A DNA stretch of 20,797 bases from a virus. The DNA is taken from IMG/VR virus record IMGVR_UViG_3300037189_005291, positions 1 to 20,797 of that record. One strand, written 5' to 3'. Positions 3,507-20,797 of this stretch are shown in pieces; positions within the stretch are counted from its first letter, which is position 1, and each line of letters opens with the position of its first letter. Position numbers and translations under genes: made by a program. Below the pieces are notes generated by a model that was not told where the DNA came from, searched no databases, and worked only from the letters and a program-made list of their open reading frames with translations.

Positions 3507-4145
3507 ATGGCATATACACGTGGAACGTCTACCAACATTATTGTTGGTGCAGCAGCACTTTTTGTTGCAGACACAACCTTAACTCCAAATACATTGGAGT
3601 CTTTTGTAGCAGATGAGTCATTCAGAGATACTCTTTCTGATAACACTGCAGAATATACAAACGTAGGTTACACCATGAACGGTCTTGAATTGCAGTTCCA
3701 ACCAGACTTCGGCGAAGTCCAGGTAGACCAAGTTCTTGACGTTGCTAAACTTTATAAGCAAGGCATGCAAGTTAATCTTGCAACTGCTTTTGCTGAAGCC
3801 ACACTAGAGAACCTTCTCCTTTCATTGGCTTATTCCGAATCAAATCTTAATGGAGTAAAGTCAACTGCTAATGGACAAGAACTTAACTTGTCTGCTGGTG
3901 ACATTGGAGAATGTCCTGTAGAACGTGGTATTGTTGCGGTAGGTCCAGGAACTGGTGATTGCGAAGATTCTGCTTTTGTAGAGCGTGTCTATTCAGCATA
4001 CCGTGCTCTGTCTATCCAAAATGTAACAGTATCTGCTAAGCGTGATGCTGCTACAATGTTTGAAGTTACATTCCGCTTGCTACCAGAAGATACTTCTGGA
4101 TCATACGGTAAGATCGTTGATCGTACATGGACTCCAGCATCATAA
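3507..4145 (+). CDS. Major tail tube protein
   Basis: 212 residues with strong AGAGGTGA (3493-3500) six bases before the ATG. Beta-rich with alternating strands, e.g. NIIVGAAALFVAD near the N-terminus, GYTMNGLELQFQPDFGEVQVD in the middle and LSIQNVTVSAK / FEVTFRLLPED near the end, the usual pattern of siphovirus tail tube subunits that stack as hexameric rings. Seven of its eight arginines are CGT/CGC codons, matching the capsid gene and unlike the AGA-using neighbours, which fits a protein made in hundreds of copies per virion. It has its own promoter and a strong terminator. It lies between the tail terminator gene and the chaperone/tape measure block, as expected; the SGNH-like gene is inserted after it. 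Confidence 0.82.
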   Translation: MAYTRGTSTNIIVGAAALFVADTTLTPNTLESFVADESFRDTLSDNTAEYTNVGYTMNGLELQFQPDFGEVQVDQVLDVAKLYKQGMQVNLATAFAEATLENLLLSLAYSESNLNGVKSTANGQELNLSAGDIGECPVERGIVAVGPGTGDCEDSAFVERVYSAYRALSIQNVTVSAKRDAATMFEVTFRLLPEDTSGSYGKIVDRTWTPAS

Positions 4146-4165: not shown

Positions 4166-4201
4166 AAGCCCACCAGTAAAATGGTGGGTTTTGTTGTTTT
4201 T
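4166..4201 (+). terminator. Rho-independent terminator after tail tube gene
   Basis: CCCACCA (4169-4175) pairs with TGGTGGG (4182-4188) around the loop GTAAAA; G-U and A-U pairs extend the stem outward (4166-4168 with 4189-4191). It is followed by TTTTGTTGTTTTT (4189-4201), a good U tract. It lies 21 bases after the tail tube stop and is the clearest intrinsic terminator in the window. Confidence 0.85.
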
Positions 4202-4211
4202 ATGATAGAAT
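4198..4211 (+). promoter_or_regulatory. Extended -10 promoter P3 (TGATAGAAT), direct-repeat copy 1
   Basis: TTTTATGATAGAAT contains TG-A-TAGAAT (4203-4211), an extended -10 with one mismatch to TATAAT. It overlaps the end of the terminator U tract. The expected start is near 4218, giving a ~23-base leader with GAAGG (4233-4237) before the SGNH-like gene. The same 14 bases recur at 4777-4790, after that gene. Confidence 0.5.
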
Positions 4212-4240
4212 TATTAAATGGTTTTAAAAAGTGAAGGTAT

Positions 4241-4792
4241 ATGATATATATATTTGGAGATTCACATACAGATAGGCTAGAGGTGAGTAGCCTTCCTAAT
4301 AACAAGATAACATATTGTTCTGAGCAGGGTAAAACTGCCTGGGCTTTTGACTATAGTAAATATGATATTTTGCAAAATTTAAACAGTAGTGATGTAATAA
4401 TACCTTGGCTAGGATATGTTGATATTAAAAATAGACTACCTAAAACTTTAAATACAGATGAATGTGTATTAAGGTATATGAATAAAACTTTTGATTATTT
4501 TCCTAATAATAGAATAATATTTATGGAACCTTTTCCACAGTTTAAGGTCTATATGGGAAAAAACACTGGAGGATATGTACCATATGATGAAAGACTATTG
4601 CAGCATAATATTTTTGTAGAATCTTTGCATAAATACTGTGAAAAGTTTGGTCTAGATAAGCCTGTTCCAATAACTAAAATAATCAACCTAGACGTTAATA
4701 GAATTCAGCATGGGGTAGATGATCATATAGAATTGCACCATTATAGAAGAATATCAAACTATCTAAAACATCAAAGTTTTATGATAGAATAA
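4241..4792 (+). CDS. SGNH/GDSL-like hydrolase, moron-type insertion
   Basis: 183 residues. The protein begins with IFGDSHT: D7-S8 in block I of the SGNH fold, where Ser is the nucleophile. G30 with KTAWAF follows, then a block-III-like LGYVDIKNRL (57-66), in the place where many relatives have a GEID or GxND motif, and a C-terminal DDHIELHHYRRISNYL (160-175) like the catalytic D-x-x-H-L block. Here the usual block V His aligns with Glu164 and two His (166,167) follow, so activity is uncertain. No signal peptide. SGNH enzymes remove acyl or acetyl esters; a role in trimming host surface polysaccharide or in lysogenic conversion is only a guess. The gene is AT-rich with AGA/AGG arginines only, has its own promoter, sits directly after the tail tube terminator, and interrupts the usual tube-chaperone-tape measure order. 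Confidence 0.6.
   Translation: MIYIFGDSHTDRLEVSSLPNNKITYCSEQGKTAWAFDYSKYDILQNLNSSDVIIPWLGYVDIKNRLPKTLNTDECVLRYMNKTFDYFPNNRIIFMEPFPQFKVYMGKNTGGYVPYDERLLQHNIFVESLHKYCEKFGLDKPVPITKIINLDVNRIQHGVDDHIELHHYRRISNYLKHQSFMIE
4777..4790 (+). promoter_or_regulatory. Extended -10 promoter P4 (TGATAGAAT), direct-repeat copy 2
   Basis: TTTTATGATAGAAT, identical to 4198-4211, lies inside the last codons and stop of the SGNH-like gene (encoding FMIE-stop). TG-A-TAGAAT is at 4782-4790, so the expected start is near 4797, only about three bases before the ATG of the long tail chaperone gene (4800). A transcript from here would be nearly leaderless. Confidence 0.45.
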
Positions 4793-4799
4793 AATACCT

Positions 4800-5489
4800 A
4801 TGGCAACTACTATTTATAAAACCCAGACTGCAAAATTGTTTGATGGTACTGAGTTAGAAATAATACCACTTAAGATAAAACATCTTAGAGATTTTATGGT
4901 TGCTTTTGATTCTATAAAAGAAGCCAAAGATGATGAGAGCGCTATAGAGGTTTTAGTAAATTGTGTAAGAATATGCATGAAGCAGTTTTATCCTAAAATA
5001 TCAAATAGCGTAGAGGATGTTGAAGATAATTTTGACTTGCCAAATATATATATTATCCTAGACGCTGCTGCTGGAATTAAGATTAATAAAGTATCTCAGG
5101 AACCAGTAAAAGACCAAGCAGAAAAAAGCGGGGAAACCTGGGAAACCCTAGATCTAGCCAAACTAGAGTCTGAAGTATTTTTATTAGGAATATGGAAAGA
5201 CTATCAAGAACTAGAATTATCACTATCTATGCCAGAACTCATGGCTACATTAGAAATAAGTAGAGAATTAGACTATACAGAAAAAAAGTTTTTAGCAGCA
5301 ATGCAAGGGGTAGATTTGGACACTGAATCTGGCAAAGGTCAGCAGGCCTGGGAAGACATGAAAGCCAGAGTTTTCAGTGGTGGAAAAACAGCAGATGCAA
5401 ATGATGTTTTATCATTACAAGGTCCTAAAGCAAAAAGTTTAGGGTTTGGTATTGGTATGGGTCTTGATTACGAAGACCTAACAAAATAG
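4800..5489 (+). CDS. Tail assembly chaperone, long form (in-frame G+T)
   Basis: 229 residues. Residues 1-98 are a G-type chaperone domain (KLFDGTELEIIPLKI, DLPNIYIILDAAAGI) and are paralogous to the whole next gene. After a charged linker (99-120), residues 121-229 are a T-like domain with WKDYQELELSLSMPELMATL (132-151), KKFLAAMQGVDLD and an end LGFGIGMGLDYE. In lambda and most siphoviruses, G and GT come from one gene by a -1 frameshift and coat the tape measure while the tube polymerises around it. Here G and T are already fused in frame. No Shine-Dalgarno precedes ATG 4800 (AGAATAAAATACCT); the promoter repeat at 4777-4790 could give a nearly leaderless mRNA. All four arginines are AGA, suggesting low expression. 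An A6 run at 5122-5127 lies in the linker. Confidence 0.8.
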   Translation: MATTIYKTQTAKLFDGTELEIIPLKIKHLRDFMVAFDSIKEAKDDESAIEVLVNCVRICMKQFYPKISNSVEDVEDNFDLPNIYIILDAAAGIKINKVSQEPVKDQAEKSGETWETLDLAKLESEVFLLGIWKDYQELELSLSMPELMATLEISRELDYTEKKFLAAMQGVDLDTESGKGQQAWEDMKARVFSGGKTADANDVLSLQGPKAKSLGFGIGMGLDYEDLTK

Positions 5490-5490
5490 T

Positions 5491-5507
5491 GTTTTTATGC
5501 TATAATT
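5491..5507 (+). promoter_or_regulatory. Extended -10 promoter P5 (TGCTATAAT)
   Basis: GTTTTTATGCTATAATT contains a perfect extended -10 (5498-5506). It matches P3 (4196-4212) at 15 of 17 bases. The expected start is near 5513, giving a ~17-base leader carrying AGGAGGT before the short chaperone gene. It begins two bases after the stop of the long chaperone gene. No -35 seen. Confidence 0.65.
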
Positions 5508-5519
5508 GAGACAACCTAT

Positions 5520-5526
5520 AGGAGGT
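5520..5526 (+). promoter_or_regulatory. Strong Shine-Dalgarno AGGAGGT fixing start at 5530
   Basis: AGGAGGT lies four bases before ATG 5530. It decides the start of the short chaperone: an in-frame TTG at 5506 would place the Shine-Dalgarno inside the coding region and would also put the start codon within the promoter. The product from 5530 begins MATT, as the paralogue at 4800 does. Confidence 0.85.
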
Positions 5527-5529
5527 AAA

Positions 5530-5850
5530 ATGGCGACAACTACTCATGAGTCTGATACAGTTAAACTGATTGATGGCACAGAAATAACCGTTCGCCCACT
5601 AAAAATCTCTCTTCTTCGTCCGTTTATGAAGAAGTTTGAAGGGGTGGCAAAGGTTGCAGAGGACAACGAAAAATCAATGACTCTGCTAATAGAATGTGTT
5701 CAAATTGCTATGCAGCAATATAAGCCAGAATTGGCTGGGGACATTGCAAAATTGGAAGATCTATTAGATCTCCCTACTGTGTATAAAATCGTAGAAGCAG
5801 CATCTGGTATCAATCTATCATCTGTTACTGACGTTTTAAATATGCAATAA
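5530..5850 (+). CDS. Tail assembly chaperone, short form (G-only paralogue)
   Basis: 106 residues, matching residues 1-~100 of the protein encoded at 4800. Shared features in the same order: MATT start, KL-DGTE, PLKI--LR-FM, C-V-I-M-Q, ED--DLP--Y-I--AA-GI. A hand alignment gives roughly 40% identity over ~100 residues. It ends in DVLNMQ with no T-like domain, and no T domain follows in another frame before the tape measure gene, so this is a stand-alone G. It has a perfect extended -10 promoter and AGGAGGT, and both arginines are CGC/CGT, all signs of stronger expression than the long form. The likely role is the abundant chaperone subunit coating the tape measure during tail assembly; it is not expected in the mature virion. 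Confidence 0.8.
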   Translation: MATTTHESDTVKLIDGTEITVRPLKISLLRPFMKKFEGVAKVAEDNEKSMTLLIECVQIAMQQYKPELAGDIAKLEDLLDLPTVYKIVEAASGINLSSVTDVLNMQ

Positions 5851-5871: not shown

Positions 5872-8800
5872 GTGGCTGATGTCAATGCTAATATTAATGT
5901 AAACATTGATAGTTCAGCAGCCCTTGCCCAACTCAAGGTTTTGCAAAGGCAAATATCCACGTTTCATACTTCTATTGCAAAAAGCAGTGAGTCTGCTGCA
6001 ATTGCACAAAAGTCATTACAAAAAAATCTACTAAACAGCATTAACTCTCTCGGCGCTTTCTCTGCCGAAATGAGAACTGTCAAAACCACATCTGAGGCTT
6101 TTACAACATCGCTTGAAAAAAACAAGTTTTCAATGCGAGAGTACTTCCGATATGCTGGAGGTGCTACAAAAACTTTTGGAAAACTTTTCAAGTCAGAGTT
6201 TGACACAATTGAAAAAGTTGCAACAGAAAGAGTCAAGCGACTTCAAACACAATATATCAAATTAGGTCGTGATACCAATGGCGCAATGCAGGCTATGTCT
6301 ATTATGCCAACCAGTCTTAACCTAAATGATTATGCAACAAAGACTTCTATAGCAGCACAAAAACAAGCACTGTTTAATCAATTAATGAAGCAGGGATCTA
6401 CCAATCTTCTAAACTTCGGTAAGAATACACAGTGGGCAGGCCGTCAGTTGATGGTTGGTTTTACAGTTCCATTATCTATACTTGGAACAACAGCCACCAA
6501 AACATTTATGGATATGGAAGCCCAAGCGCTTAAGTTTAAAAAGGTTTATGGAGATTTATTTACTTCTCAAGAACAAACTCAGGCAGCGCTAGATGGCATT
6601 ACAGAACTTGCTAGAGGATTTACTCAATATGGCGTTGCAGTTTCCCAGACAGTTGGCCTTGCAGCCGATGCTGCAGCAGCAGGTTTCCAGGGTATAGATT
6701 TACAAAGACAAACAACGGAAGCAACACGACTTTCTGTATTAGGACAAATAGATAGCCAAAAAGCACTTGAGACAACTATATCTCTTCAAAATGCTTTTAG
6801 CATGTCCTCTGCAAACTTAGCATCATCAATTGACTTTCTTAACGCAGTAGAAAACCAAACCGTTGTATCTCTTGATGATATTACAACTGCTATTCCAAAA
6901 GTTGCTCCAGTAATCCAACAACTTGGTGGAGATGTAAAAGATTTAACATTCTTTATGGCTGCAATGAAGGAAGGTGGAATTAATGCATCTGAAGGAGCAA
7001 ACGCACTTAAGTCTGGTCTTGCAGCATTAATTAATCCTACTGGCAAAGCAAACGAAATGCTAAAGCAGTTTGGTATAAATGCAACTGATATTGTTACAAG
7101 AAATAAAGGAAATCTAAAAGCAACAGTTATAGAATTTGCACAAGCATTAAATCAACTAGATCCACTAAACAGAGCACAGGCAATTGAGCAAATGTTTGGA
7201 AAGTTCCAGTTTGCCCGTCTATCAACACTTTTTGCTAACGTTACAAAAGAAGGAAATCAGGCTGCTCGTGTTCTTGCATTAGCAAATTCCTCAGTAGAAG
7301 ATCTATCATCTTTATCTGAAAAAGAACTTGGACAAACAGCAGAATCTGCAATGAATAAGTTTAAGAAAACTGTTGAAGATCTTAAGGTAGCCCTTGTTCC
7401 AGTAGGTAAAGCATTTCTTGAAGCAGTAACTCCAATTGTTGAATTTGTTGGAAACATTTTAGAAAAATTTGGAAACCTATCTGATGGAACTAAAAAAGCA
7501 ATAACATTAATGTTAACTGCAATTGGTGGACTTGGCCCAGTTCTCCTTATGACATTTGGTTTGCTTGCAAACGGTGTAGCAAATATTGTTAAACTCTTTT
7601 TGACATTAAGAAACGGATACCTAAGACTAACTGGACAATCCCAAATACTTGGAGAACAAACCCAATACTTAACAATGGAGCAGATCGATGCTGCTGCTGC
7701 ATCACACTCATTAAACCAGGCACACGCAAGTTTAACTCAACAATTTACAGTAGAGGCAGAAGCACTAAATGGATTAATTAGTGCATATCAAAGTGCCACT
7801 GTAGCAGGACAGAACTTTATGCTAAATAATCCTGGTGCAATGCTACCACGCAAGTATGCAGATGGAGTAGCAATAGTTCCAGGAAGTGGTACTGGCGATA
7901 CTGTCCCAGCAATGCTTACTCCAGGAGAAGCAGTTATTCCTGCTCCAATGGCTAAGAAGTATGCACCATTAATACAGGGAATGATTGCTGGAAATATACC
8001 AGGGTTTGCAAAGGGAGTCCTCAGTGTTGGTGGAAGAGCAGTAGGTGCAAATCTATTTAATGATAGAAACGCAGCACAGATTCAGTCTGTAATTGACAAT
8101 ATGATGAACGCTACATCTGGAGTTGCAAACGCACAAACAATTATTGCAGAAACACTTGCAAGAGTTTCTCAAGATGCTAGAATAAGTTTTTCAAGTTTTA
8201 CAAAAGAACTAGATATTGTTGCAAGAGAAATATCTAATATTCAAATACCAGAAAACATTATTGGAGAAAGAGATTACAGTGCATCAGGTGCTGGAGTTAA
8301 AGGTAGTGTTTCTGCACAACTTATGGGCACTCGTGGAGATCTGGGTGCTGAAGAAGTAAGACGTGCTAAAGTAGCAGCAGATGCAGTTCGTAAAGCCTAT
8401 GAAGATATGGGAATTTCTGGAAGAAAGTTAGAACAAGCCTTACAGGTTGATAGAGCACACATAGTTGAAGTAACTCAAGCAGAAAAAAGATATAGCGCAG
8501 CATGGGATACTAGATTGTTTGTTGCACAAGCAAGAGCAGAAAATGAAATGAGTATGCTTCTTACTAATGAAAAAAATCAAAGAGCATATATTTCAAAATT
8601 ACAAAATGTTGATGCTTCAGAATCAATGAAGGCTTCAATACTTGAAAAGATTACAAGAGATCTTGCACTATCAGAAGAAGAACTTCAAATACAGGCACAA
8701 ATCTTAAAAGAGATGTTAGCAGATGCACAATTAATGAAGTCAACAACTTCTGGATTTGGTGTAATTGCACAAGGAACAATCGCAGCAGCAGGTGCCAGAA

Positions 8801-11800
8801 TGAGTATGGGACCAGCATCAGCAGGTGTTGGCTCTAGATCCGCTGCAGAAATTGCTGCTGCACAACAAGATTTAATTCTACAAAAGTTTAGAGGTAATAC
8901 AGAATTTATTAGAGTAATAGAAGCAGAAGGAGTTGAAGCAATAGATCAGGCACTTACTGCCATGGAACAAAAAGCAGAAACAAGATCTCCTTCAAAGAGA
9001 ACAAGAAGACTTGGCAAAAATATTGTAGATGGCCTTAGACTTGGAATGCAAGATGGAGACACTGCACTTAAGGTCAAGGCAGAAGAAACAGCAAATATTG
9101 CAACACTCTCAAATACAGGTGGCCCAGTTAGACCAAGAACAACAATTAGTCAACTGACATCACAAATGCCTATTTCTGATGAAATTAAAAATAAAACAAC
9201 ACAACAGGCAAGAAGCATGCAAGAGACCCATGAGAGGCTTTCTAAACTTAACTCTGCCATAATGGGTGGAACCTTTGCTTTAACCTCTCTAGCAGGCGCT
9301 GGATCGCTTATGGGGGGTGCTATAGGCAATGCATCAAGCCAAATAATGAAGTTCTCAGGACTACTTTTTGGATTAATGTCAGTAACTCAATTACTTACCC
9401 AAGCAAAGGTTGCAGAGTTACTAGCAAGCAGGGCAGCCCTAGGAGCATCAGCAGCAAAGTCTGTAGGTGGGACTGGATTCTTTAGTTTATTATTGCGAGG
9501 TGCACAATATCTAAAAGCATTTCTAGGACCAATTGGTTTAGCAACTGCTGCAATTGGTGTTGTCGTTGGTGCATGGAAGGTTTATTCAGGAGTTCAAGAA
9601 GCACAGAGAGTAAAACTAGAGGCTTTTGGAATTGCTGTTTCTAATAGCACAAAGCAACTAAAAGCATTGGGAGAATATTTTGGAGTAACTCCAAGAAAAA
9701 CTGGTTTTGATAGCAAAACTGGCCTATCTGTTCAAAGCGGTAAAGGCAGAACTAAACTAGATGAGTTTTTATCCTCTGATACTTTTACAAAAGAATTTTC
9801 AAAAGATGTTTCAGCAACAAAAATCTTGTCAGATCAAGAAGCAATACTTGCATTAAAATTTAGAGGGCTAGAACTTTTATCAAAAGACTTTTCTAAAGAA
9901 CAAGTTCAAATTATTATTGATGCAATTAAAGAGCAGGCTGGGAAATCAAATCTTGATATTGATTTTGGATCTATAAAGTTTGACGAAAAAAGTATAATTT
10001 CAATTCAAAAAGACTTACAAGAATCTTTTAAGAAAGTTGCAAAGGGATTTACTAAAAAGGGTAATGTATTACAAGATACTCTTATAAGTGGAATTGATCC
10101 AAATACTGGTAAAGCAACTAAATACAGAAATACAGTTTTGTCTAATCAGTTCCAAGCAACAATAAAAAATCAAGCAAATCTGATGAAGACCTATTTGCAA
10201 ACAACCCAAGGACTTTTTGATCAAGGAACAATAAGTGGTGAAACTTATAACACCATGATTACTAATATGTTTAATGAATTAAGAACCAGCGTTCCTGAAG
10301 CAAGTCAACAACAGATTATTTTAAATTCTGTTTTTGCAGATATGGAAAATCCATTAAGCAAAGCAATAACAATGATGTCAGATTATAAAGATCAACTATT
10401 ACTTACACAAGCAGCAGGTCTTGGATTACAGACTAGTATTTCCCAACAAGATCTTGATGCCTTGTCTTATGGCGGTAATGATATTTTCTTAATAGGAAGA
10501 AAACAAACTGCAGAAAGAAAAATCAATTCTTTAATTGCTGAAAGATTAAAGATGATTAAAGAAGCAAATGCTGCAAGCGTAAATGATTATATTACACCTA
10601 CTACTGATTCAGGACCTAAGAAAAAAACTTGGGCAGAATTAGTAAAAGAGCAAAGTGATAGAATCAAGTCATTAGATGACCAAAAGAAAGCAATGCAAAA
10701 ATTAACTGCTGCTGGAGTTTCATATAAAGATGCCCTAGATATTATTCAAAATGCTGAAGACGCTGCACTTATTGCAAACTCAAAAGCAACAACAGCAAAA
10801 ATTAAGGGGTATGCGGAATTAATTAAAAAAGGTAGAGAATATGCTCTAGTTACTAAAGAAAATGCTAAGGCAGAGTTTGATGCACAAAATGATATTGCAC
10901 AATCATATTTTTCAGCACAAGAAGCATTGATCAAAAATCAAAGAGAGGCTGGAGCAGAAGATCTTCAAAATAAGATTGACGTAGCAAAGGTAGCAATTGA
11001 TGCAGCCCAAATAGATGTAGATGCACAACAAAAACTAATTGATTCTAATATTAGAGATATTTCTGCTCTAAATAATGCAATAGATAAGAACTACGATAGA
11101 CCAATTCAGGCAATAAATGACGAGTCTACTATCCTTCAAAACAATCTAAGTATTATAGATCACCAGTCTAATCTGATTAATGAAAAGTATGATGCCCAGG
11201 CCAAGGCATTAGACGAAGTTTCACAAATTAATGAAAAAATTGCAGCACAAGAAAAGTCTAAGTTGACAATTGCAGATGCAATTACTCAAGGAGATATTTC
11301 TGCTGCTGCTGCTGCAATGCAAGATGCTAGGGCACAAGCAGCAAATGCTCAAGTAGGAAATCTTCAAGATGCACTTGATGCTGCAAGAGAAGCAGAACTT
11401 GCAAGAATAACTGTTGGTGGTTTGACTAAGGCTCAGATTGATGAAAAACTATATCAAAATTCTCAAGAAATATTTAGACTAGAACAACTAAGAAGAATAG
11501 AGCAAGAGAAAGTTATAAAACTACAAGATGCAAATTATAACTATGAGCAAGAAATTCTTAGAATTAAAGAACAGATCATTGCCCCACTACAAAAAAGTGT
11601 TGATGAAAATACTATACTTTTAGATAAGTATAATAAACAAACAGAAGAATTAGTTTTACAATTAAAGTATCTTGGTAAAACAGCAAAAGAGTGGGAAACA
11701 AATCAAATAGAGATAGATGCAGCATACTCATCTTTGATTACATACAATAATACACTTGATTCTACGCTGGAGGCAATGAAGTTGATCAATGCTGAATGGA

Positions 11801-12321
11801 ATAAACTATCAGGAAGCAAGCAATCTTCAAACAGTGAAAACTTTGGATTTAATACAACAGATCCTACATCTGCAGCATATGTAGATCCTATAGGTAAGGG
11901 TGTGGATCCAACTAATTATGGATACACAAGCAAGAACCCTTCATTTACCTACTCCCCATGGCCTGGTTTTGCTAAGGGTGGCTTAGTTCCTAGATATTTT
12001 GCTAGTGGTGGATTTGCATCAGGAACTGACACTATACCGTCAATGCTTACCCCAGGTGAGTTTGTCATGACACGCAAAGCAACAAGCCAATATAGACCAA
12101 TTTTAGAATCAATGAATAGACAAAGTTTTAATGTTCCAGGAAATAACGGATACACTGGTTCTAAGGTCACACAAGTTTCAAATTCTAGTTCGTCTTCAGT
12201 GTATAATTATAATGTTGGAATTACAGTTGGTGGCTCTAATGTTAATGCAAATGAAATAGCAAAAACAGTTATTGATCAAATTAGAACCATTGACTCACAA
12301 AGAATTAGAGGACAGCGATAA
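5872..12321 (+). CDS. Tail tape measure protein
   Basis: 2149 residues, the longest gene, directly after the chaperones. GTG start with GAAGAGGT (5857-5864) seven bases upstream. Residues ~180-560 are a PhageMin/TP901-type tape measure core (AGRQLMVGFTVPLS, EAQALKFKKVYGDLF, MAAMKEGGINASEGANALKS). Hydrophobic stretches at ~543-577 and ~1217-1240 may become membrane-inserting segments during DNA ejection. Two copies of the GTDT-PxMLTPGE motif lie near ~670-695 and ~2045-2065, and an SPSK motif (RSPSKRTRRLGKNIVDGLRL) at ~1038. Residues ~1666-1975 are a long coiled coil. At about 0.15 nm per residue this predicts a tail near 320 nm if uncleaved. No lysozyme or peptidase domain was recognised. Its 5' part uses more CGN arginine codons than the rest. 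The stop overlaps the next ATG. Confidence 0.93.
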   Translation: MADVNANINVNIDSSAALAQLKVLQRQISTFHTSIAKSSESAAIAQKSLQKNLLNSINSLGAFSAEMRTVKTTSEAFTTSLEKNKFSMREYFRYAGGATKTFGKLFKSEFDTIEKVATERVKRLQTQYIKLGRDTNGAMQAMSIMPTSLNLNDYATKTSIAAQKQALFNQLMKQGSTNLLNFGKNTQWAGRQLMVGFTVPLSILGTTATKTFMDMEAQALKFKKVYGDLFTSQEQTQAALDGITELARGFTQYGVAVSQTVGLAADAAAAGFQGIDLQRQTTEATRLSVLGQIDSQKALETTISLQNAFSMSSANLASSIDFLNAVENQTVVSLDDITTAIPKVAPVIQQLGGDVKDLTFFMAAMKEGGINASEGANALKSGLAALINPTGKANEMLKQFGINATDIVTRNKGNLKATVIEFAQALNQLDPLNRAQAIEQMFGKFQFARLSTLFANVTKEGNQAARVLALANSSVEDLSSLSEKELGQTAESAMNKFKKTVEDLKVALVPVGKAFLEAVTPIVEFVGNILEKFGNLSDGTKKAITLMLTAIGGLGPVLLMTFGLLANGVANIVKLFLTLRNGYLRLTGQSQILGEQTQYLTMEQIDAAAASHSLNQAHASLTQQFTVEAEALNGLISAYQSATVAGQNFMLNNPGAMLPRKYADGVAIVPGSGTGDTVPAMLTPGEAVIPAPMAKKYAPLIQGMIAGNIPGFAKGVLSVGGRAVGANLFNDRNAAQIQSVIDNMMNATSGVANAQTIIAETLARVSQDARISFSSFTKELDIVAREISNIQIPENIIGERDYSASGAGVKGSVSAQLMGTRGDLGAEEVRRAKVAADAVRKAYEDMGISGRKLEQALQVDRAHIVEVTQAEKRYSAAWDTRLFVAQARAENEMSMLLTNEKNQRAYISKLQNVDASESMKASILEKITRDLALSEEELQIQAQILKEMLADAQLMKSTTSGFGVIAQGTIAAAGARMSMGPASAGVGSRSAAEIAAAQQDLILQKFRGNTEFIRVIEAEGVEAIDQALTAMEQKAETRSPSKRTRRLGKNIVDGLRLGMQDGDTALKVKAEETANIATLSNTGGPVRPRTTISQLTSQMPISDEIKNKTTQQARSMQETHERLSKLNSAIMGGTFALTSLAGAGSLMGGAIGNASSQIMKFSGLLFGLMSVTQLLTQAKVAELLASRAALGASAAKSVGGTGFFSLLLRGAQYLKAFLGPIGLATAAIGVVVGAWKVYSGVQEAQRVKLEAFGIAVSNSTKQLKALGEYFGVTPRKTGFDSKTGLSVQSGKGRTKLDEFLSSDTFTKEFSKDVSATKILSDQEAILALKFRGLELLSKDFSKEQVQIIIDAIKEQAGKSNLDIDFGSIKFDEKSIISIQKDLQESFKKVAKGFTKKGNVLQDTLISGIDPNTGKATKYRNTVLSNQFQATIKNQANLMKTYLQTTQGLFDQGTISGETYNTMITNMFNELRTSVPEASQQQIILNSVFADMENPLSKAITMMSDYKDQLLLTQAAGLGLQTSISQQDLDALSYGGNDIFLIGRKQTAERKINSLIAERLKMIKEANAASVNDYITPTTDSGPKKKTWAELVKEQSDRIKSLDDQKKAMQKLTAAGVSYKDALDIIQNAEDAALIANSKATTAKIKGYAELIKKGREYALVTKENAKAEFDAQNDIAQSYFSAQEALIKNQREAGAEDLQNKIDVAKVAIDAAQIDVDAQQKLIDSNIRDISALNNAIDKNYDRPIQAINDESTILQNNLSIIDHQSNLINEKYDAQAKALDEVSQINEKIAAQEKSKLTIADAITQGDISAAAAAMQDARAQAANAQVGNLQDALDAAREAELARITVGGLTKAQIDEKLYQNSQEIFRLEQLRRIEQEKVIKLQDANYNYEQEILRIKEQIIAPLQKSVDENTILLDKYNKQTEELVLQLKYLGKTAKEWETNQIEIDAAYSSLITYNNTLDSTLEAMKLINAEWNKLSGSKQSSNSENFGFNTTDPTSAAYVDPIGKGVDPTNYGYTSKNPSFTYSPWPGFAKGGLVPRYFASGGFASGTDTIPSMLTPGEFVMTRKATSQYRPILESMNRQSFNVPGNNGYTGSKVTQVSNSSSSSVYNYNVGITVGGSNVNANEIAKTVIDQIRTIDSQRIRGQR

Positions 12322-20321: not shown

Positions 20322-20797
20322 ATGGCAAGATCAGATATAACTTCTAAACAGAAGATTATCAATGATGTATATAATGATTCTCCAGTCATTAAAGGAAATC
20401 AAAAGATATGGTTTTTAAATGGAGATCTCATTAGGCTTCATCATAGTTCAAGATCTACAGGTATGGTAACGTTTTATAATATTACTAAGGACAGACTTGA
20501 GACATGTTTAAGATCTGACTTTAGAAAAAATAGACAAAAAGCATACACTGTTGCAGAGACTGCTAAATTAATTAATCGTCACAGAAAGTATATCCCAACA
20601 TTAATTAAACAGGAAATCATTCCTCCACCAATAGGATCCAAGGTTAATGGACAAAGGGGATGGCAAATCAGATCATATTATTCTGAAGACCACGTTAGGG
20701 AGATTCGTGATATACTTGCAAGTATACATATTGGACAACCAAGAAAAGACAAATTAATAACAAATAATATGACTCCTACAAGCCAAGAGTTGACAAG
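20322..20797 (+). CDS. MerR-like helix-turn-helix DNA-binding protein (3' end outside window)
   Basis: The frame from ATG 20322 stays open to the window end (158 complete codons). Residues ~75-99 (YTVAETAKLINRHRKYIPTL) match the MerR-type helix-turn-helix. The wing lies at ~101-120 (PPPIGSKVNGQRGWQIRSYY) and is followed by a helix starting SEDHVREIRDIL, as in excisionase/MerR-like winged helices. Residues 25-70 (KIWFLNGDLIRLHH, TFYNITKDRLETCL) form an additional, probably nucleic-acid-binding, N-terminal domain. No Shine-Dalgarno is visible; the gene begins two bases after the previous TAA. Possible jobs: late-gene regulator, DNA-packaging or terminase-related factor, or repressor of neighbouring genes. 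I recognise the fold only, not the gene. Confidence 0.65.
   Translation, partial: MARSDITSKQKIINDVYNDSPVIKGNQKIWFLNGDLIRLHHSSRSTGMVTFYNITKDRLETCLRSDFRKNRQKAYTVAETAKLINRHRKYIPTLIKQEIIPPPIGSKVNGQRGWQIRSYYSEDHVREIRDILASIHIGQPRKDKLITNNMTPTSQELT

Follow-up and report, generated by a model that had tools for sequence, protein, structure and literature searches.

Apparent replacement of a tail chaperone frameshift by a tandem gene pair in relatives of the Stanwilliamsviridae phages

Most long-tailed phages make two forms of their tail chaperone from one gene through ribosome slippage. In phage lambda, G coats the tape measure protein, and GT couples the tape measure to the major tail protein, at a ratio of about 30:1 (PMC5009743). 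A permanent GT fusion without a separate G, engineered in phage TP901-1, gave particles that look intact and are non-infectious (PMC4493119). In the PRFect study, 342 SEA-PHAGES genomes carried two chaperone genes with no annotated join, and missed joins were presumed (PMC10885494). No earlier report of a frameshift being replaced by a gene pair was found in the open literature that we searched.

The Stanwilliamsviridae, Streptomyces phages of about 130 kb, are the closest named and the closest cultured relatives of the phages considered here. All 12 of the members examined carry a single G gene with the T domain in an overlapping −1 frame, and a joined G–T product is annotated in some of the records (Yaboi, Emma1919).

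Two chaperone genes in the window and its relatives

We analyzed a 20.8-kb virus record (20,797 nt, the whole stretch being called the window below) that holds a siphovirus tail module. On its plus strand, the major tail protein gene, an SGNH-like ORF, the GT gene, the free G gene and the tape measure gene follow one another in this order. The major tail protein gene (3507..4145) was assigned from a match to phrog_2175, a weak match to the major tail protein family phrog_885, and synteny, while the tape measure gene (5872..12321, 2149 aa) matched TIGR01760 at 4e-31; their products are the presumed clients of the T and G domains, respectively. The GT gene (4800..5489, 229 aa) is an in-frame fusion of a G domain (about residues 1–100), a linker (5096..5145) and a T domain (about residues 112–229), and the free G gene (5530..5850, 106 aa counted from the ATG) encodes a paralogue of this G domain. 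In the relatives too, the chaperone genes come after that of the major tail protein and before that of the tape measure. Elsewhere in the window, the protein encoded at 519–854, located between the major capsid end and the adaptor, showed a weak Rho_N/SAP-like match at its N-terminus, and a truncated ORF at the end of the tail module (20322–20795) has, by eye, the look of a MerR/HTH-type DNA-binding protein.

The first-pass annotation, made from the letters of the window, had described ORFs of 229 and 106 aa, with the short one repeating the G domain of the long one at about 40% identity. Indeed, the short protein is 43% identical to the first 100 residues of the long protein (E 1e-25). Both proteins matched phrog_10504, and the T part of the long protein also matched phrog_10474. 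These assignments hold across the family, since both profiles were matched by 51 of the 51 diverse relatives of the long protein, and phrog_10504 by all 74 proteins of the short-gene alignment, which comprises free G and frameshift-type G. In tblastn searches, the G and T genes of 124–127 Streptomyces phages matched, many of them annotated as tail assembly chaperone. The short protein is homologous both to the G domain of the long protein and to the G of frameshifting phages. The structure model of the long protein had a confident G domain (about 91 pLDDT); the full model matched A0A6J5QVP5 (probability 1.00), Kitkat (0.94), EfaCPT1 (0.93) and N15 GT (0.85) in a viral structure library, where its matches are tail assembly chaperones, including an Enterococcus frameshift chaperone. 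The model of the short protein was poor (pLDDT 63). Pfam and NCBIfam searches returned nothing for either chaperone, and no credible match was obtained among solved structures by sequence or fold.

Six IMG/VR scans together with Streptomyces phage records yielded 489 loci with 328 distinct core sequences; the initial architecture labels of three loci were discarded, namely L024 and L064, which are cut off by a contig end, and L350, whose G ORF is split. The pair, with a free G gene after the fused GT gene, was found in 201 of the 328 cores, and a single G gene with T in an overlapping −1 frame in the other 127, which include every sampled Streptomyces phage (Stanwilliamsviridae). The two architectures were mutually exclusive. 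No intermediate was present among the 328 cores, and the census contained neither a frameshift locus with a second G nor, where the contig continues, a fused gene without one, the second G being present in 201/201 distinct fused-gene relatives with a complete region. The pair phages are mostly environmental and come from many metagenomes, with a constant gene order and a gap of tens of nucleotides in nearly all. Furthermore, whole-contig searches of 20 long contigs (57–130 kb) detected exactly two G matches in 11/11 pair phages and exactly one in 9/9 frameshift phages, with no extra G copies elsewhere in these contigs; likewise, each of the 124 Streptomyces phage records matching the short protein did so at one place. 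GTDB genomes, searched for a prophage or host clue, contained no relative carrying either protein, and no plasmid match was found. These results confirmed that the duplicated chaperone is real and extends far beyond the window, with the long–short pair carried by 201 distinct cores.

Slippery sites and expression signals

We compared the G/T junctions of the two architectures. An in-phase X_XXY_YYZ heptamer was present at the G/T overlap in 115/126 frameshift loci, mainly as C_CCA_AAC (57), G_GGA_AAC (32) or C_CCA_AAT (20), and the remaining 11, which are Boydwoodruffvirinae-like, have an imperfect C_CCG_GAA at the same place. In the Boydwoodruffvirinae loci L159, L163, L164, L167 and L168, the site reads GAC CCG GAA without a canonical heptamer, a putative slippery site of an unusual kind. 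In contrast, a frameshift-type heptamer was in phase in the linker of none of the 201 distinct fused genes (0/201), and none is in phase in the linker of the window. As read from the sequence, the GT gene is one continuous frame with no frameshift-type heptamer and would not be classed as a −1 programmed-frameshift cassette. This supports the claim, made initially for the window, that G and GT are probably produced from two tandem paralogous genes rather than by frameshifting. As far as sequence can tell, the claim withstood both findings named at the outset as refuting it, a working frameshift site in the long gene and a short protein that is no G-type chaperone.

A recoding event might nevertheless be hidden in the long gene, which would still yield G by frameshifting or truncation and leave the short gene as a spare. 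The linker of the window does contain the runs AAAAAAGC and GGGGAAACC, and some in-phase XXXYYYZ occurs in 33/201 fused genes; however, these are mostly A-runs, and many fused linkers share a GGGAAAC that is not in phase and stems from a conserved Trp–Glu codon pair. Phase and the lack of conservation led us to reject a hidden frameshift in the fused gene. In addition, every contig that continues past the fused gene carries the short gene, which appears, by every signal, to be the more conserved and better expressed copy, so that hidden recoding of any kind is very improbable. We also rejected frameshifting from the short gene's 3' end into other sequence, as TTTAAAY is scattered (21 occurrences in 200 genes), GGGAAAC occurs twice, and no T domain lies downstream.

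The two genes differ in their initiation signals. In the window, the gap after the GT stop codon holds the extended −10 promoter TGCTATAAT (5498..5506) and the Shine–Dalgarno sequence AGGAGGT (5520..5526) of the G gene, while GT has no Shine–Dalgarno sequence (duplex energy +0.2 vs −11.5 kcal/mol for G). The first-pass annotation had recognized these features of both genes, but overlooked the extended −10 promoter of GT itself, TGATAGAAT (4782..4790), which lies 9 nt before the ATG, and the intrinsic terminator after the major tail protein gene (4166..4201, a 26-nt hairpin of −15.6 kcal/mol followed by a T-rich stretch). The one correction to that reading is that GT is not simply a gene weakly translated from a shared message, since it has its own promoter, at leaderless spacing, behind a terminator. 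GT is the sole gene in the window with a −10 at this spacing.

The same arrangement is conserved in the relatives. The Shine–Dalgarno sequence was stronger for G than for GT in 196/196 of them, with a mean of −2.15 kcal/mol for GT. For GT, 130 of the 151 distinct upstream regions have an extended −10 at 5–10 nt from the ATG, against a mean of 0.8 after shuffling, and the other 21 have none at this distance. The extended −10 of G lies at 18–39 nt in 147/149 distinct regions, with the consensus TGNTATAAT, and the hexamer TATAAT occurs in 148/150 G promoters vs 32/140 GT promoters. A terminator upstream of GT was detected in 70/70 sampled relatives (shuffled 4), and none was found between GT and G. 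In frameshift relatives, the chaperone −10 is located at 22–41 nt and is accompanied by a Shine–Dalgarno sequence, and the gap from the major tail protein gene to the chaperone gene is 80–120 nt, vs 60–100 nt in most pair phages. Since the frameshift relatives have this spacing and a Shine–Dalgarno sequence, the upstream copy appears to have lost its leader.

Actinobacteria can translate leaderless mRNAs well, and a leaderless message therefore need not be a weak one. The norm in Mycobacterium tuberculosis is a −10 centred 7–12 nt upstream of the start point (PMC3898074). Because the GT spacing matches this norm, transcription should start at or just before the ATG, and the GT mRNA, which also has no Shine–Dalgarno sequence, should be leaderless. 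That the spacing was kept while the Shine–Dalgarno sequence was lost suggests that a leaderless start was either selected or tolerated. The ratio of the two proteins could instead be almost wholly transcriptional, with the leaderless start of GT being an unimportant by-product, or with GT translated from read-through transcripts. The far higher share of TATAAT in the G promoters, the lack of a terminator between GT and G, and the leaderless transcription of one in four M. tuberculosis genes (PMC3898074) are in keeping with this proposal. It is nonetheless rather unlikely, as the 5–10 nt spacing to the ATG is conserved and the Shine–Dalgarno sequence lost, unlike in the frameshift relatives.

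Codon usage also separates the two genes. All four arginines of the window GT gene are AGA (4/4) and those of G are CGC or CGT, just as had been noted at the outset. Across the family, CGT and CGC account for 0.84 of the arginine codons in the major tail protein, 0.68 in free G, 0.28 in the tape measure and 0.16 in GT. Similarly, ATA makes up 0.52 of the isoleucine codons in the G domain of GT vs 0.08 in free G and in frameshift-type G, and the T domains of both architectures are ATA-rich (0.39–0.43). The codon usage of free G thus resembles that of the major tail protein, and that of GT is of the low-expression type, which independently supports an abundant G and a rare GT. The expression signals as a whole would fit G greatly outnumbering GT.

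The window differs from its relatives in the SGNH-like ORF (4241–4792), which starts with MIYIFGDSHTD, lies between the terminator and GT, and was assigned by eye, no family match being found for it. It is flanked by an exact 14-nt repeat, TTTTATGATAGAAT (4198–4211 and 4777–4790), that contains the GT-type promoter. One copy of the promoter TGATAGAAT (4203..4211) consequently stands directly after the terminator, with the SGNH-like ORF now downstream, and the insertion left GT its own promoter copy. An ATG after the first promoter copy, also at leaderless spacing, opens the short frame MVLKSEGI (4218–4244), which overlaps the SGNH-like start and is perhaps a stump of the original GT start context. 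Together with the AT-rich composition and AGA codons of the long gene, the repeat and the absence of the ORF from every other fetched locus might suggest that the pair itself is peculiar to the window, as a recent duplication, a cassette acquired horizontally with the SGNH-like ORF, or an assembly artefact. However, the AGA bias of GT is family-wide, and the 201 distinct relatives from many metagenomes with constant gene order rule out an artefact, a recent transfer or a window-only oddity. Such an origin thus deserves next to no credence for the pair, and holds only for the SGNH insertion.

Origin of the gene pair

We then considered the trees of the G and T domains. The G tree places the fused-gene G domains in one clade (100/99) and the free G proteins in another (99/90), with G from the nearest frameshift phages joining the free G proteins (98/87). 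The fused copy's G domain falls outside this clade of free G and near-frameshift G on a long stem branch, which led us to assume acceleration after duplication; a single clade of fused-gene G and free G was not rejected (p-AU 0.43). In the T tree, the T domains of the pair phages nest among those of the frameshift phages, and the frameshift loci around L217 form a clade either next to the pair group or within it. Furthermore, L353 (2642–3384) is a frameshift locus with C_CCA_AAA and a long-branch G, and its T domain groups with the pair phages. The T tree therefore requires two changes, not one, and the placement of L353 and the L217 clade makes a reversal or recombination possible. Overall, the trees would fit one duplication and one in-frame fusion from a frameshifting ancestor.

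The long stem of the fused G domain could also mean that the paralogues have divided the work, such that coating of the tape measure falls to free G, and the G domain within the long protein has taken on another function, for example docking at just one tape measure end or binding free G, leaving no classical GT. Conservation is indeed lower for the G domain of the long protein (mean pairwise identity 0.58) than for free G (0.68), and the two G domains within one phage are only about 38–41% identical. However, the long G domain matched the same family in all 51 relatives and has its invariant positions in common with free G, and faster change would also be expected with few copies and relaxed codon selection. 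We thus consider such a division of work doubtful; it would in any case refine the duplication and fusion reading rather than contradict it.

We therefore favor the reading that the usual −1 programmed frameshift of the chaperone cassette was replaced once by gene duplication and in-frame fusion, with a probability of roughly 0.8. The fuller account, in which a conserved frameshift was lost once in a large lineage through duplication, fusion and a leaderless rare product, with the ratio set by transcription and initiation, is likely too, although we hold it with somewhat less assurance. The ancestor would have had one G gene with T in an overlapping −1 frame, and this chaperone gene would have been duplicated in tandem. 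The downstream copy would have retained only G, with an ancestral-style promoter and a strong Shine–Dalgarno sequence, and the upstream copy would have lost the slippery site, its leader and its Shine–Dalgarno sequence, become an in-frame GT fusion, and kept a promoter near the ATG, from which a leaderless mRNA should arise. Abundant G would then coat the long tape measure protein, while scarce GT would use its G domain to bind the tape measure and its T domain to recruit the major tail protein. The G:GT ratio would be set by the two promoters, by leaderless vs Shine–Dalgarno initiation and by codon usage, not by slippage, and read-through of the GT transcript into G would presumably contribute.

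Meaning and comparison with known systems

These results bear on the question of why tailed phages conserve the frameshift, whether for the ratio itself or for the recoding, for example for sharing one G sequence. The pair lineage may serve as a natural experiment, in which there is no recoding, the two G sequences have diverged to about 40% identity, and the ratio would instead depend on contrasting promoters, initiation signals and codon usage. This suggests that the G:GT ratio is what selection sees. The pair would also offer an example, placed on a tree, of two separate genes taking over from a recoded one, and it leads to the prediction that a leaderless mRNA serves to set the dose of a phage assembly protein. 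For annotators, the resulting rule is that a second tail chaperone gene need not mean that a frameshift was missed.

Compared with gpG and gpGT of lambda, the pair phages have the same G domain and T extension encoded between the major tail protein and the tape measure, and the same expected need for G far above GT (30:1 in lambda, PMC5009743). However, lambda uses a −1 programmed frameshift at GGGAAAG, whereas the pair phages have an in-frame GT and a separate tandem G, each with its own promoter. The Stanwilliamsviridae (Karp, Yaboi, Lululemon) share the protein family, at about 35–45% identity, and the gene order, but carry only a single G gene, T being read in the −1 frame from an overlap that contains C_CCA_AAT (Loccivirinae) or C_CCG_GAA (Boydwoodruffvirinae). 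The engineered gpG-fs-T of TP901-1 has a fixed in-frame GT as in the pair phages, but no separate G (PMC4493119), and its lack of infectivity may explain the absence of fused genes without a second G. Outside phages, the nurf-1 isoforms, reported to have split into paralogues after duplication, offer a parallel, since one gene with two overlapping products became two genes there as well; the ancestral mechanism there was not ribosomal frameshifting (PMC6752949), whereas in the pair phages it is recoding that would have been replaced.
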